A DNA stretch of 24,105 bases from a virus, in IMG/VR virus record IMGVR_UViG_3300035670_001224, positions 1 through 24,105 of that record; one strand, written 5' to 3'. Below, in pieces: positions 6,647-22,012 of the stretch. Both the position numbers and the translations under genes were made by a program. Numbering within the stretch: the stretch's first letter is position 1; each line of letters begins with the position of its first letter. The notes under the pieces were generated by a model, which saw nothing but the letters and a program-made list of their open reading frames with translations, had not been told where the DNA came from and ran no database searches.

Positions 6647-6675
6647 TTGCCATAATAATTTTAATGTGTTATAAT
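6647..6675 (+). promoter_or_regulatory. Sigma70-type promoter before the portal gene
   Basis: TTGCCA (6647-6652) lies 17 bases before an extended -10, TGT-TATAAT (ending 6675). The -35 begins on the first base after the upstream stop codon. The ATG follows 11 bases after the -10, so the transcript would carry only about four leader bases and no Shine-Dalgarno. Confidence 0.75.
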
Positions 6676-6686
6676 TTACGCAATAT

Positions 6687-8726
6687 ATGGCAAAAGAGAA
6701 AAGTGTACTAGCACTGGCTAAATTGTTTTATGCTGATGGGGAGCAGTTTTATTGTTCAGAGAAAGAGAAGGCCGTACTCGCAGACATTGTAGATTTATTT
6801 AGAAAGACTCAGGCCGCACGAGACCAGCGGTTCCAATACTTTGATGGTCAGAATCTAATTGAATATATCGAAGACTCAGTGCTTCGCTTTAATACAAACG
6901 TAGACGAACGAGAAGGTATCGAAGACTGGCAGGCTGCTGTAAATGACGGCTTTACTCGCAACAAGGTACTTGCTATCCTTGGTAAGATACGAGAGGTATT
7001 GCCTATTGCTACGTTTACTGGTCGTGGAGATGAGGACTCTCAGAAGGGTATTATACTCTCAACTCTGTATCAGTACGTTGAAGACATGGACGACTATGAA
7101 GAGTTCATGACCCACTATCTTCTTGAGGCTATTGTCAAAGGAACTGCTATTGGATACGAAGATGTTCATTACCAGAACAAGAAAATTCGTGACGTAACGG
7201 GTATCGGTGACGGTATCAAGATAAGCGAGAAGAATGAGAAGACGACTAAACTCTTCGCTTCTATTGTGCCGCTTGAGGAGTTCTATCCATCAAGCCCGTC
7301 AATCCGTAAGATTAAGGACATGCCTTACGCCTTCTGGCGCACAGTAATGTCTTACTCAACATTCGTAGAAGGTTTTGGTCACTATCGAAAGTCTGAGCTA
7401 GTAACCCCAAAGCAGTCTTTCCTGGACAACGAAATGAAGCCATACTACTATGACTTTATGGATGAGTCTACCGCAGATGGCTCTGTTGAGGTAATTCGAT
7501 TCTATGACAAGCTTAATGACCAATTTGTTATTATAGCAAATGGTATATGGCTTAACTCAATCGTTACATCAGACGACGCGGAAGAAATATCTCCACTTCC
7601 ATGGTCACACAAAGACTTGCCGTTCTTTGATACAAAGTTTGATTTCTTTGGTTCAGACTTCTTCTATGGTAAGTCACTGCCAGACCGACTCAAGTCAATG
7701 CAGGACATTCTTAATGTTCTCACAAACATGCTTCTTGACCAGTCATTCCTCACAATCTTCCCACCACTTCTCACAAACGGATTTGACTCAATAGAGGATG
7801 ACTATTTGCGACCAGGAAGACGAACGCCAGTAGACACGCAAGGTTTACCAATTAGTCAGGCATTCCAAGTCTTACAGTCACCAACGCCGTCAGGATGGCA
7901 CCAGTACATTCTTGAGTACACTCGTCAAGTAATGGAAGAGGCATCCATTGACAAAGTAAGTCAAGGTATGGCAGGAGCAGGAGACCGAACTACGGCTCAA
8001 GAGATTCGTGTTGCAGCCTCTGGTGTTGCCGCCATGCTTCAACTCTTTGCAACAATGGTTCATACAGCAATCAAGCGTAAGGCCATGCTTAAGACAAGCA
8101 ATATCTTACAGTTTGGTATGAATCCAGAGGCTCCTATTGTACGAGCTGTACTAGGAGACTCAGCATCAGAAGACCTCCAGCGTGCGTTCTCAATCATCAA
8201 GGTTGATAACTCTGTACTAAGTCAGGGCAAGAGAGGAACTCGTGTTATTGAAATGTACAAGAGCAAGGCCGAACTTCCAACCCCATCGAATGTTCGTGCT
8301 CGCGCCAAGATAAATAAACTAGAATCAGGCAACGAGGTTGAGATTGTGGCAATACCTCCAACCTATCTCCGTAACTTTGAATTTGACGTTAAGGTAGTAC
8401 CAAATCCAGCTTCGCAGTCAACTAAGGAGGTGGAAAAGGCATTACAGCTAGAAAAGCTACGAGTTTACTTAAGTTTCTTCCCAGAGCTTGTAAATAAGAA
8501 AGAGCTTGCAGCACAGACAGCAGAAAAAATGGGTGACGACCCAGCAAAGATTCTTCTTGGAGAAGCATTTGGAATACCACCAGCCAACGAGAACAACCCA
8601 GAAATGGACCCAGGTATGTCAACGGAACCTAATGGCAATACCGCAAACAATCTAGCTCGTTCAGTAAGGGGCGGAGAACAAGGAGGCGCAGAGATGGCAG
8701 CATTAATGGGTAACATCACAGGTTAA
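6687..8726 (+). CDS. Portal protein
   Basis: A 679-residue protein in the canonical place after the terminase. The portal is the twelve-subunit ring at one capsid vertex through which DNA enters. The middle and C-terminal parts fit a portal. After a mixed alpha/beta clip region, LPDRLKSMQDILNVLTNMLLDQS and the following long helices (QYILEYTRQVMEEAS, then TAQEIRVAASGVAAMLQLFATMVHTAIKRKAML) resemble the stem and wing helices of podovirus-type and P22-like portals. The C-terminus is Gly/Asn-rich (NGNTANNLARSVRGGEQGG). Its promoter is immediately upstream. It ends in TAATG, overlapping the next start by one base. Confidence 0.88.
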   Translation: MAKEKSVLALAKLFYADGEQFYCSEKEKAVLADIVDLFRKTQAARDQRFQYFDGQNLIEYIEDSVLRFNTNVDEREGIEDWQAAVNDGFTRNKVLAILGKIREVLPIATFTGRGDEDSQKGIILSTLYQYVEDMDDYEEFMTHYLLEAIVKGTAIGYEDVHYQNKKIRDVTGIGDGIKISEKNEKTTKLFASIVPLEEFYPSSPSIRKIKDMPYAFWRTVMSYSTFVEGFGHYRKSELVTPKQSFLDNEMKPYYYDFMDESTADGSVEVIRFYDKLNDQFVIIANGIWLNSIVTSDDAEEISPLPWSHKDLPFFDTKFDFFGSDFFYGKSLPDRLKSMQDILNVLTNMLLDQSFLTIFPPLLTNGFDSIEDDYLRPGRRTPVDTQGLPISQAFQVLQSPTPSGWHQYILEYTRQVMEEASIDKVSQGMAGAGDRTTAQEIRVAASGVAAMLQLFATMVHTAIKRKAMLKTSNILQFGMNPEAPIVRAVLGDSASEDLQRAFSIIKVDNSVLSQGKRGTRVIEMYKSKAELPTPSNVRARAKINKLESGNEVEIVAIPPTYLRNFEFDVKVVPNPASQSTKEVEKALQLEKLRVYLSFFPELVNKKELAAQTAEKMGDDPAKILLGEAFGIPPANENNPEMDPGMSTEPNGNTANNLARSVRGGEQGGAEMAALMGNITG

Positions 8727-9025: not shown

Positions 9026-9054
9026 TTGTCAGATACTATAACTCGTGTTATAAT
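9026..9054 (+). promoter_or_regulatory. Consensus promoter for scaffold and capsid genes
   Basis: TTGTCA (9026-9031), a 17-base spacer and TATAAT (9049-9054) preceded by TGT. This is the closest match to a consensus sigma70 promoter in the window and begins right after the previous stop codon. It should drive high expression of scaffold and capsid proteins. Confidence 0.88.
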
Positions 9055-9061
9055 AAAAGCG

Positions 9062-9205
9062 GTTTGTACATTCTCTCTCGTCATGACTAAGTTGTGGCGA
9101 GGATAGACTGCACAAGCAGTCCTTAGGTCAACTTATGCTGGACCCACCCAGCCTTGGACCCGCACCAAGTAAAAACAGGGACAGTTAGTAAATAAAATAG
9201 GGGAG
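9062..9205 (+). promoter_or_regulatory. Structured RNA leader of the scaffold gene
   Basis: About 150 bases separate the promoter from the scaffold ATG and contain consecutive inverted repeats. An outer stem TAAGTTG/CAACTTA (9088-9094 with 9129-9135) encloses a perfect stem GACTGC-ACAA-GCAGTC (9106-9121). Two adjacent hairpins follow, GCTGG-ACCCAC-CCAGC (9137-9152) and CTTGG-ACCCGCA-CCAAG (9153-9169), with similar ACCC loops. After an unpaired A-rich stretch, AGGGGAG (9199-9205) lies six bases before the ATG, the one clear Shine-Dalgarno in the window. No known riboswitch or ribozyme core was recognised. Confidence 0.7.
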
Positions 9206-9211
9206 TTGAAT

Positions 9212-9841
9212 ATGTCAGAAGACAATCGAGACGACATCGAGGCTGAGATAGCTAAAGCGAAAGCGGAAGTCGAAGAGCGACTAAAGCAGGAGAAAGACGC
9301 TGTTGTAGCCGAGCTTATTGCTGAGCGGAAACGCCGACAAGAAGCTGAGGAACTTAACAAGGGAAAGCAAGACGACGGTAAAGAGGACGACCCAGAAAAG
9401 GTTATCGAAAAGGTTCTAGAGCGTAAGCAGCAAGAATCCTTCAAACAAATCAAGGAATCGACGATAGAAGCATTTAAACGAAAGCATCCAGAGTTCTCAC
9501 CAGAGAATGATGCCGCAGGACTAGCATTTGCAAAGTTCCAGCGTGAGTTGCAGAAGTTTAATGAATCATCTGTTCGGTCCAAAGAGGAGTACGAAGAATT
9601 ACTTTCAGATGCTTACGAGTTTATGAACCGTAAGAAGCGTAATGATGAGAACCCAGTTCCATACTACGCAGGCTCTAATGCCAACCTAGGCTCGTCACCA
9701 CGCGCCGATGATAATGCTGGTCTCAATGATGCAGAGAAAAGATTAATAGCTTCGGTTGGATGGACCAAGGAGAAATTCCTAGACCAGAAGGCCAAGCGAC
9801 CATCCTACGTTGCATCACTCCTGAGAAATTATCAACGATAG
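9212..9841 (+). CDS. Capsid scaffold protein (putative)
   Basis: A 209-residue, highly charged, mostly helical protein between portal and capsid genes, the normal position of the scaffold that guides prohead assembly and then leaves. The N-terminal half is a predicted coiled coil rich in Glu, Lys and Ala (IEAEIAKAKAEVEERLKQEKD...ERKRRQEAEELNKG). A middle segment IEAFKRKHPEFSPENDAAGLAFAKFQREL and a C-terminal motif GWTKEKFLDQKAKRP...YVASLLRNYQR complete it. A frame start TTG at 9206 also exists, but the ATG at 9212 has AGGGGAG at the right distance. Confidence 0.8.
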   Translation: MSEDNRDDIEAEIAKAKAEVEERLKQEKDAVVAELIAERKRRQEAEELNKGKQDDGKEDDPEKVIEKVLERKQQESFKQIKESTIEAFKRKHPEFSPENDAAGLAFAKFQRELQKFNESSVRSKEEYEELLSDAYEFMNRKKRNDENPVPYYAGSNANLGSSPRADDNAGLNDAEKRLIASVGWTKEKFLDQKAKRPSYVASLLRNYQR

Positions 9842-9853
9842 TTTCATTAAGTT

Positions 9854-9889
9854 CCATAGATATTAATTAATCTTATTTTTAATCTATGG
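9854..9889 (+). promoter_or_regulatory. Inverted repeat covering a start codon
   Basis: CCATAGAT (9854-9861) and ATCTATGG (9882-9889) are perfect eight-base arms around an AT-rich 20-base interval, with further TAA/TTA pairing inside. The right arm contains the ATG (9886-9888) of the decoration-like gene. In RNA it would hide that start. In DNA it could be an operator. Confidence 0.55.
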
Positions 9890-10404
9890 CAATGATTAAA
9901 GTAGGTAGTCTCAATCCACACGGAGCACCAGTGCTTCGCAAGGCCATTCTTTCCAACTCAATTACTTCAACAGTAATGGATTCAATCAAGTTGGCATCAG
10001 GCTTTGCAGCTCTCGGTACAACCGGAGCGTTGGTTTTTGGACACCTCACAAATCACAAAGACCCAGATGGTGTTGGTTTGCTCACCACGGGCGTAGCAGG
10101 AGCTGAAATTGGTTCTTATGTTGGAACATATCTTACTGCTTCAAACAACCAGACCGTAGGATTGGTAGCAGCAGAATGTGATATTTCTACATTCTCTCTC
10201 TATTCTGCAGAAGTAGACGCAGCAATCGGAACCACCACTGGTTCTGACCTCGCTGGTTACAAGATGGACCTTGCTGATGAAGACACACTTGATGAGTCTA
10301 CAGCAGCTTTGACAACCTTCCAGTACAACGGCTGGGGTGTAGACCCTGAGGATGCAACGAAGGCGATTGTGAACATTTATGAGAGCCAAGTATTTGGTGT
10401 ATAA
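9886..10404 (+). CDS. Capsid decoration-like protein
   Basis: A 172-residue protein between scaffold and major capsid protein. The N-terminus is MAMIKVGSLNPHGAPVLRK. The middle is Gly/Ala/Thr-rich (GTTGALVFGHLTNHKDPDGVG). The C-terminal two thirds read as beta-rich (AECDISTFSLYSAEVDAAIGTTTG, LAGYKMDLADEDTLDESTA, FQYNGWGVDPEDATKAIVNIYESQVFG). The series 'VDAAIGTT..G..LAGYKMDL....LDEST....FQ..GWGVDP' resembles small decoration or head-fibre proteins encoded beside capsid genes of environmental phages, a similarity from memory. The true start may be the first ATG (9886) or the third codon (9892). Confidence 0.65.
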   Translation: MAMIKVGSLNPHGAPVLRKAILSNSITSTVMDSIKLASGFAALGTTGALVFGHLTNHKDPDGVGLLTTGVAGAEIGSYVGTYLTASNNQTVGLVAAECDISTFSLYSAEVDAAIGTTTGSDLAGYKMDLADEDTLDESTAALTTFQYNGWGVDPEDATKAIVNIYESQVFGV

Positions 10405-11469: not shown

Positions 11470-11877
11470 ATGAAATCACCTACAGTTTTTAGTAACCTTA
11501 ATGCTCAAGAATTAATTTCTTCTAAGGCAACAGTTACTACAATTAACACCGCCGGAGCTGTTACACTCACAGCGGCACAAGTAGCAGGAGGACTTATCCT
11601 TCGTGACCCAAATGGTGCTGGCCGAGCTGACCTCGTACCAACAGTTGCAGCACTTTATACTGAAATTGGAAGCCCTCTCAAGATTGCTGGTTTGTCTTTT
11701 GACTTCACCATTCGCAATACTGCAGATGCTGCTGAAACCATTACAGTCACAACCAATACTGGTTGGACTCTTAGCGGAACAATGACTATTGGCCAAAACA
11801 ACAGCAAGACTTTCCGTGTTGTATTTGATACCGCCGCTGCCGCAACTCTCTATTCACTTGGAACAGTAGTTCACTAA
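11470..11877 (+). CDS. Capsid-associated beta protein (putative cement/head fibre)
   Basis: A 135-residue protein. After an N-terminal 40 residues it contains AAQVAGGLILRDPNGAGRADLVP and then FDFTIRNTADAAETITVTTNTG...GTMTIGQNNSKTFRVVFD. I recognise this combination (GGLILRDPxGA, FTIRNTADAAETIT, GTMTIxQNN) from small beta-rich proteins downstream of capsid genes in many environmental phages, where they are annotated as structural or hypothetical. It may decorate the capsid or serve as a small trimeric fibre. No Shine-Dalgarno. The capsid hairpin separates it from the major capsid gene. Confidence 0.68.
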   Translation: MKSPTVFSNLNAQELISSKATVTTINTAGAVTLTAAQVAGGLILRDPNGAGRADLVPTVAALYTEIGSPLKIAGLSFDFTIRNTADAAETITVTTNTGWTLSGTMTIGQNNSKTFRVVFDTAAAATLYSLGTVVH

Positions 11878-21275: not shown

Positions 21276-21289
21276 AAGTATTGTATAAT
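21261..21289 (+). promoter_or_regulatory. Promoter giving a leaderless mRNA
   Basis: TTGTTC (21261-21266), a 17-base spacer and TATAAT (21284-21289) with TG just upstream. Only six bases (CATTAA) separate the -10 from the ATG at 21296, so transcription should start at the A of the ATG. The promoter overlaps the end of the holin-like gene. Confidence 0.75.
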
Positions 21290-21295
21290 CATTAA

Positions 21296-22012
21296 ATGTT
21301 AGACTGGCAAATAGAACAGGAAATAAAGCAGCTTCGAGCAGAAGTAGACACCCTTAAATCTAAGGATGTCATTACTCGTGACATGAATGCTCAGACTAAG
21401 GACGTGTTCAAGGAGCTAATGAAGGATATTATTTTTGACCTAGTGTGGGATGAAGTATTTTACATATCCTCTATGGATGGTCCGGCCGCAACCACCACAT
21501 CTGCATCTGAGTTATTCTCATCAGCAACTCGACAGGCTGATACTTCTGCTGAAAGCTTTCTTTCTACAGACAGGATAAGTAAGTTCCGTTGCCACTTCTA
21601 CTTTAATGGGACTGACGTAACCGATTGTACTGCATACATTGGTAGTATGGGAACCGCAACAACTGATACTGGTATAACCTCTATTAACCAGGCTGGCATG
21701 GAGTACTTAGCAATTAAGGTTACAAACGGAGTTGTTACACTTGTTTCTAAATCACACCTTGGTTCCAAGGAAAAGTCAACTCAGTACACAATAACTGACG
21801 ACACAACATACCGATTAGATATTAATTATTTTCCACGTGAGCGTGCCGAGTTCTATATCAATGGAAAGTTTGTTGGAGGTATGACAGAGTACCTACCGGG
21901 CCAACCAAACATAGTCACCTTCTTCCCACTCATGGTGTCTATTACTCGCGGTGGTGCAACAAATAGGAATGTTACAGTAGAGTCGTGGGAGTTTATTCAA
22001 GAAAGACAATAG
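21296..22012 (+). CDS. Coiled-coil plus lectin-like tail/fibre protein
   Basis: A 238-residue protein. Residues 1-45 form a helical or coiled-coil stem (EQEIKQLRAEVDTLKSKDVI...VFKELMKDI), which may trimerise. The rest is a beta sandwich of concanavalin-like type: STDRISKFRCHFYFNGTDV, TYRLDINYFPRERAEFYINGKFVGGMTEYLP and the final VESWEFIQE strand. The word 'Y.L.I.Y.P.ERAEFYINGK.VG' is typical of such folds in phage fibres and baseplate proteins. It has its own leaderless-type promoter and probably begins a separate late transcript with the next gene. Confidence 0.72.
   Translation: MLDWQIEQEIKQLRAEVDTLKSKDVITRDMNAQTKDVFKELMKDIIFDLVWDEVFYISSMDGPAATTTSASELFSSATRQADTSAESFLSTDRISKFRCHFYFNGTDVTDCTAYIGSMGTATTDTGITSINQAGMEYLAIKVTNGVVTLVSKSHLGSKEKSTQYTITDDTTYRLDINYFPRERAEFYINGKFVGGMTEYLPGQPNIVTFFPLMVSITRGGATNRNVTVESWEFIQERQ

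Follow-up and report, generated by a model that had tools for sequence, protein, structure and literature searches.

PreQ1-I and other H-type pseudoknot riboswitches are built on a short hairpin loop that pairs with a downstream A-rich or purine strand near the ribosome binding region, and the E. coli rpsO (S15) operator is a single pseudoknot for which a ribosomal protein is the known ligand. The rpsO pseudoknot is part of an operator through which a protein controls its own translation (PMC3014915). For phage mRNA, the precedent for a pseudoknot operator is the T4 gene 32 leader, which a 2010 review described as possibly the sole viral pseudoknot used in translational autoregulation (PMC3014915). 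In the gene 32 operators of T4, T2 and RB69, protein binds cooperatively along an unstructured A+U tract, the binding being nucleated by a single pseudoknot that lies 67 nt upstream (PMC3014915). The STAXI motif is a tandem array of at least two similar pseudoknots, and its copies are located near genes for DNA-handling proteins (PMC2864571).

The leader analysed here is located in a 24-kb viral fragment (24,105 nt, hereafter the window) that belongs to a family of uncultured phages with genomes of approximately 50 kb. Comparison of homologous leaders showed that it almost certainly forms a conserved nested double pseudoknot, closed by a helix (P0) and reaching the start site of one gene. The arrangement resembles the T4, T2 and RB69 gene 32 operator as a phage mRNA leader with a pseudoknot upstream of the start, and in the putative control, at the level of translation, of a protein that is required in defined amounts (PMC3014915). 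Unlike gene 32, two nested pseudoknots supported by covariation and a closing helix reach the AUG here, the regulator is one that we only infer, and the gene lies between the portal and MCP genes and encodes an all-helical protein of no single-stranded DNA-binding family. The two similar pseudoknots in tandem recall STAXI (PMC2864571), whose pseudoknots are independent of each other, whereas the pairing here is nested, closed by P0 and without an Rfam match. The ACGR tetraloops that characterise both hairpins of Guanidine-II were absent, the loops being 6-7 nt long and of ACUC, GCAU or ACCC type, again with no Rfam match. The short hairpin loop pairing with a downstream A-rich or purine strand is shared with preQ1-I and other H-type riboswitches, but the element is doubled and nested, its loop letters are not fixed, and it has no metabolic gene and no Rfam match. 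With the rpsO operator it would share the placement of a pseudoknot in a translational operator. Pseudoknot operators in phage mRNA are very rare, and a family-wide covarying double pseudoknot would represent a second, architecturally different case. The leader would also offer a defined RNA for testing how phages set scaffold-to-coat ratios and for studying the gating of translation where Shine-Dalgarno (SD) sequences are unused.

The protein encoded downstream of the leader, in the position of a scaffold, retrieved no relatives in viral contigs, and MCP and portal were therefore chosen as queries. Searches of IMG/VR with these two proteins produced some tens of related contigs, the longest of approximately 51 kb. 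Among isolated phages, MCP relatives were no closer than 26-27% identity (four records) and portal relatives were not found, while a search of bacterial genomes with the MCP alignment for proviruses, as a clue to the host, also found none. The gene order portal, p99, leader, 'scaffold', p172 and MCP was conserved in the relatives. The element was found in every relative with an MCP identity of at least about 48% and enough upstream sequence, once per genome and always directly ahead of the same gene.

A sigma-70-type promoter was identified by sequence at positions 9026-9054 of the window, with TTGTCA (9026-9031) separated by 17 nt from TATAAT (9049-9054) with a TG extension, as had been described previously; this promoter predicts a transcript start at about 9061. 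A TTGnnn..TGnTATAAT promoter was also present upstream of the core in most relatives. The conserved core spans 9128-9211 (all features of the leader are on the plus strand). It starts with the 5' strand of P0, UCAACU (9128-9133), followed by hairpin H1, GCTGG-ACCCAC-CCAGC (9137-9152, loop 9142-9147), and by the abutting hairpin H2, CTTGG-ACCCGCA-CCAAG (9153-9169, loop 9158-9164). After an A-rich linker, E1 (GGG, 9178-9180) was assigned as the 3' strand of pseudoknot 2 with CCC of loop 2 (9159-9161), and E2 (GGGG, 9200-9203) as the 3' strand of pseudoknot 1 with CCC of loop 1 (9143-9145), both on the basis of co-change. The loop 1-E2 pairing lies outside and the loop 2-E1 pairing inside, and P0, supported by a permutation test on flank pairing, closes around H1 and H2 with its 3' strand AGUUGA (9204-9209), which stops 2 nt short of the AUG (9212). 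The preliminary description had listed TAAGTTG (9088-9094), CAACTTA (9129-9135), GACTGC-ACAA-GCAGTC (9106-9121), the A-rich linker, AGGGGAG (9199-9205, which contains E2) and the ATG, and all of these letters are present. Its two tandem hairpins with ACCC loops were correct in sequence and stems but are not simple independent units, as their loops take part in the two nested pseudoknots.

Visual comparison of the leaders showed a common core even though the DNA could hardly be aligned end to end. In each, a first flank is followed by the two abutting hairpins, then by one A-rich stretch containing E1 (GGG/GUG) and another containing E2 (GGG/GUG), and finally by the complementary flank and the AUG. 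In total, 51 distinct leaders were parsed; a descriptor handled most of them, and the remaining few were parsed manually. The descriptor demanded pairing in H1 and H2 and made no demand on the match between loops and E1 or E2; the 100% pairing in the two hairpins is therefore partly a result of selection, and all four Watson-Crick types were present in their stems across the leaders. Co-change was scored as A at the third loop letter against U at the second letter of the partner, with L004 excluded. For loop 1 and E2, A was found with U in 8/8 leaders and otherwise in 0/42, and for loop 2 and E1 in 20/20 and 0/30, respectively. Further loop and partner pairs were CAC/GUG, CUC/GAG, UCCU/AGGA, UCCC/GGGA and GCA/UGC. 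The Fisher values for this co-change ignore kinship. Independent contrasts on the MCP tree agreed in 4/4 cases for loop 1-E2 (sign test 0.125) and in 7/7 for loop 2-E1 (sign test 0.016). The swapped pairing (loop 1-E1 and loop 2-E2) was rejected, as it showed no association (p 0.70), was near chance on the MCP tree and had its key pairs broken in 17/43 rows each.

The MAFFT alignment (A2) misplaced E2 in several rows and the pseudoknot counts were therefore made on anchored pieces joined by fixed artificial spacers (A3), on which the covariation measures beat nearly all shuffles. The tertiary pairings comprise just 3-4 bp, and a G-U pair occupies the centre of many of them. For P0, the native flanks paired at -8.2 kcal/mol compared to -5.3 kcal/mol when reshuffled, and none of 20000 permutations was as good. 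The start region also paired upstream (native -7.0 vs -6.1 kcal/mol reshuffled; 16/20000) in a test that overlaps P0. L088 is an exception in which pseudoknot 2 was broken. L084 was considered as a member without one of the hairpins and rejected as such, both being present 12 nt apart. Compensatory changes, which the preliminary description had named as its own test, were thus abundant in homologous leaders, but for a different structure than the one drawn; the claim of a structured cis-acting leader of the scaffold-position gene holds through this conserved covarying core. Folding of the region, also suggested there as a check, did not support a structure when the window sequence was folded by itself (MFE z-score -0.93, with 34 of 200 shuffles folding as well or better), whereas the evidence from comparison of leaders is very strong.

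A covariance model, with the window in its training set, was run over the full length of 20 records. In 19 there was one clear copy each, with a doubtful second match (E 0.33) in one of them. Loci that had been held out were recovered by the model in the homologous position, among them L124 (34% MCP identity), whose loops GCAU and ACUC match its E2 (GUGC) and E1 (GGG), respectively. A profile built without the window had its sole window match at 9128-9210 (E 9e-8). A strict descriptor produced zero off-site matches and zero matches in 1.2 Mb of shuffled sequence; it also misses the window, a somewhat deviant member with a 7-nt loop 2 and CA before E1.

The gene downstream of the leader (9212-9841, plus strand) encodes a 209-aa protein located between portal and MCP. 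No sequence family match was found for it; its predicted model was all helix (pLDDT 84, pTM 0.45), and a structural search with this model gave no match at E ≤ 0.001. Position and helical character suggest that it is a putative scaffold protein. In the proposed mechanism, transcription from the local promoter would be followed by folding of the leader into P0 closing H1 and H2, with the H1 and H2 loops pairing back to E1 and E2 as two nested pseudoknots. The distance from the ends of P0 and E2 to the AUG is between a few and about 30 nt, and in many relatives a P0 extension pairs over the AUG, so that the fold could keep ribosomes off the start site and the folded state would presumably be OFF. 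Gating of translation by the leader is likely. We propose with some confidence that the leader is a cis-acting translational control RNA, a lock on the scaffold-position gene whose gating would set the level of this protein relative to the capsid protein. The regulator, the least certain step, would be one of the assembly proteins: the most likely candidate is the product of the gene itself, acting autogenously in its free form, with the coat protein as the alternative; sensing of an assembly protein by the leader is suggested tentatively. It is conceivable, at a similarly low level of confidence, that the leader represents an undescribed phage RNA class in which nested pseudoknots locked over the start codon by a closing helix sense free capsid-assembly protein and set the scaffold-to-coat ratio in phages of hosts that initiate without SD sequences.

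The AGGGGAG box had been considered the only clear SD in the window, and the scaffold-position gene is the only gene there with a strong purine box ahead of its ATG. Across the family, E2 was GUG in 8 of 51 leaders, changing together with its loop partner, and the distance from E2 to AUG ranged from 6 to 33 nt. SD-like 4-mers preceded 9.9% of the longer ORFs compared to 14.4% of background positions family-wide and were thus not enriched. In 7/10 portal genes, the -10 box lay just 5-18 nt ahead of the AUG, so that near-leaderless portal transcripts are likely. These data favour reading E2 as a strand of a pseudoknot; a family SD was rejected on the GUG variants, the spacing and the lack of enrichment, as E2 is neither a conserved box complementary to the anti-SD nor at a fixed spacing from the AUG, and the SD label is probably a misreading. 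Within the window alone, the sequence and spacing of E2 also suit an SD, and it may have a double role there. In the window, TATAAT was also observed only 6-12 nt ahead of the ATG at 6665-6687 (portal) and 21280-21296 (gp238), which are likely leaderless or near-leaderless.

The same initiation pattern would suit an IRES-like recruiter or enhancer: where the host makes little use of SD sequences, a compact fold could bring in the 30S subunit and boost the expression of a late structural gene. The unenriched SD-like 4-mers, the strong consensus promoters and the occurrence of a long structured leader only at the scaffold-position gene, next to near-leaderless portal transcripts, are consistent with it. 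However, P0 and its extensions tend to draw the start region into pairing, and the variable distance between E2 and AUG is unlike that of a ribosome-positioning element, which makes recruitment unlikely.

A small-molecule translational riboswitch, comparable to the preQ1-type pseudoknots with A-rich tails, is still less probable. Compact hairpin-type pseudoknots, an A-rich third strand and conserved loop letters point in that direction, but the element is confined to a single phage family, where it precedes a single structural gene, and its loop letters drift freely while the pairs are kept, leaving no obvious invariant binding pocket. The search of bacterial and archaeal genomes with one exact pattern gave a single chance match inside a Bacteroidales gene. 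In agreement with the earlier statement that no known riboswitch was matched, the Rfam 15 covariance models found only a tRNA on the window, away from the leader, and, with E-values relaxed, nothing of note on the core of L001, L007 or other loci. Literature searches covering the autoregulation of scaffolds, structured leaders in phages and double pseudoknots also turned up no account of the element.

Upstream of the core, the window has a dispensable variable domain (9061-9127) with a long hairpin, CTCGTCATGAC/GTTGTGGCGAG, and the GACTGC-ACAA-GCAGTC hairpin. In relatives this domain consisted of long hairpins of unrelated sequence, of nothing in L006, L091, L113 and L120, and of a tRNA-Met (CAU) gene in L003 (L003:3591-3662), between promoter and pseudoknot core, where tRNA processing would cut the leader. 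The nested stem TAAGTTG/CAACTTA drawn previously was rejected as part of the fold: CAACTTA pairs downstream in P0 (TCAACT/AGTTGA), the two pairings are mutually exclusive, the stem is not conserved in relatives, and upstream competitors for the P0 5' strand were no better than reshuffled ones (5587/20000 as good). A switch between this stem and P0 was likewise not conserved and is conceivable for the window alone. The small GACTGC/GCAGTC hairpin may be a genuine feature of some members, as near relatives have look-alikes with compensatory letters (GACTAC/GTAGTC in L002, GACTAT/ATAGTC in L003 and GATTAC/GTAATC in L034). In many leaders the variable domain carries a 5' hairpin of very high stability, which could indicate a stability element that merely shields an abundant late mRNA from nucleases; with the conserved part being the start-proximal core, and with the four leaders without any 5' hairpin, this reading is very improbable. 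A trans-acting RNA, for packaging or regulation, whose overlap with the gene start is incidental would fit the ornate structure, the single copy and the adjoining packaging and head genes. It is, however, extremely improbable, as in all members the P0 3' strand ends at a distance of a few to about 30 nt from the AUG of that same gene.

Other observations were made in the leaders and their surroundings. The sequence GGTCGAT was found near the apical loop of otherwise differing long 5' hairpins in L004, L023, L025, L028, L031, L033, L050, L054 and L110, while L099, L105, L107, L108, L109 and L115 had a 5'-terminal hairpin with a loop like CGGCCCTCGG and a stem whose letters differ between leaders but still pair. 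An inverted repeat, CCATAGAT/ATCTATGG, spans the p172 start codon in the window (9852-9890); it was rejected as a family element, being present in the window but not conserved in relatives. In L039 (6249-8055), the MCP gene is seemingly split near residue 150 by an insert of roughly 840 bases. A phage tRNA-Ile whose anticodon, UAU, is unusual was identified at 18-90 on the minus strand of the window. Finally, p135 (11470-11877) had a match (E 1e-26) to PHROG 673 'head scaffolding protein', over the C-terminal half of that family; its location after MCP is unusual for a scaffold.
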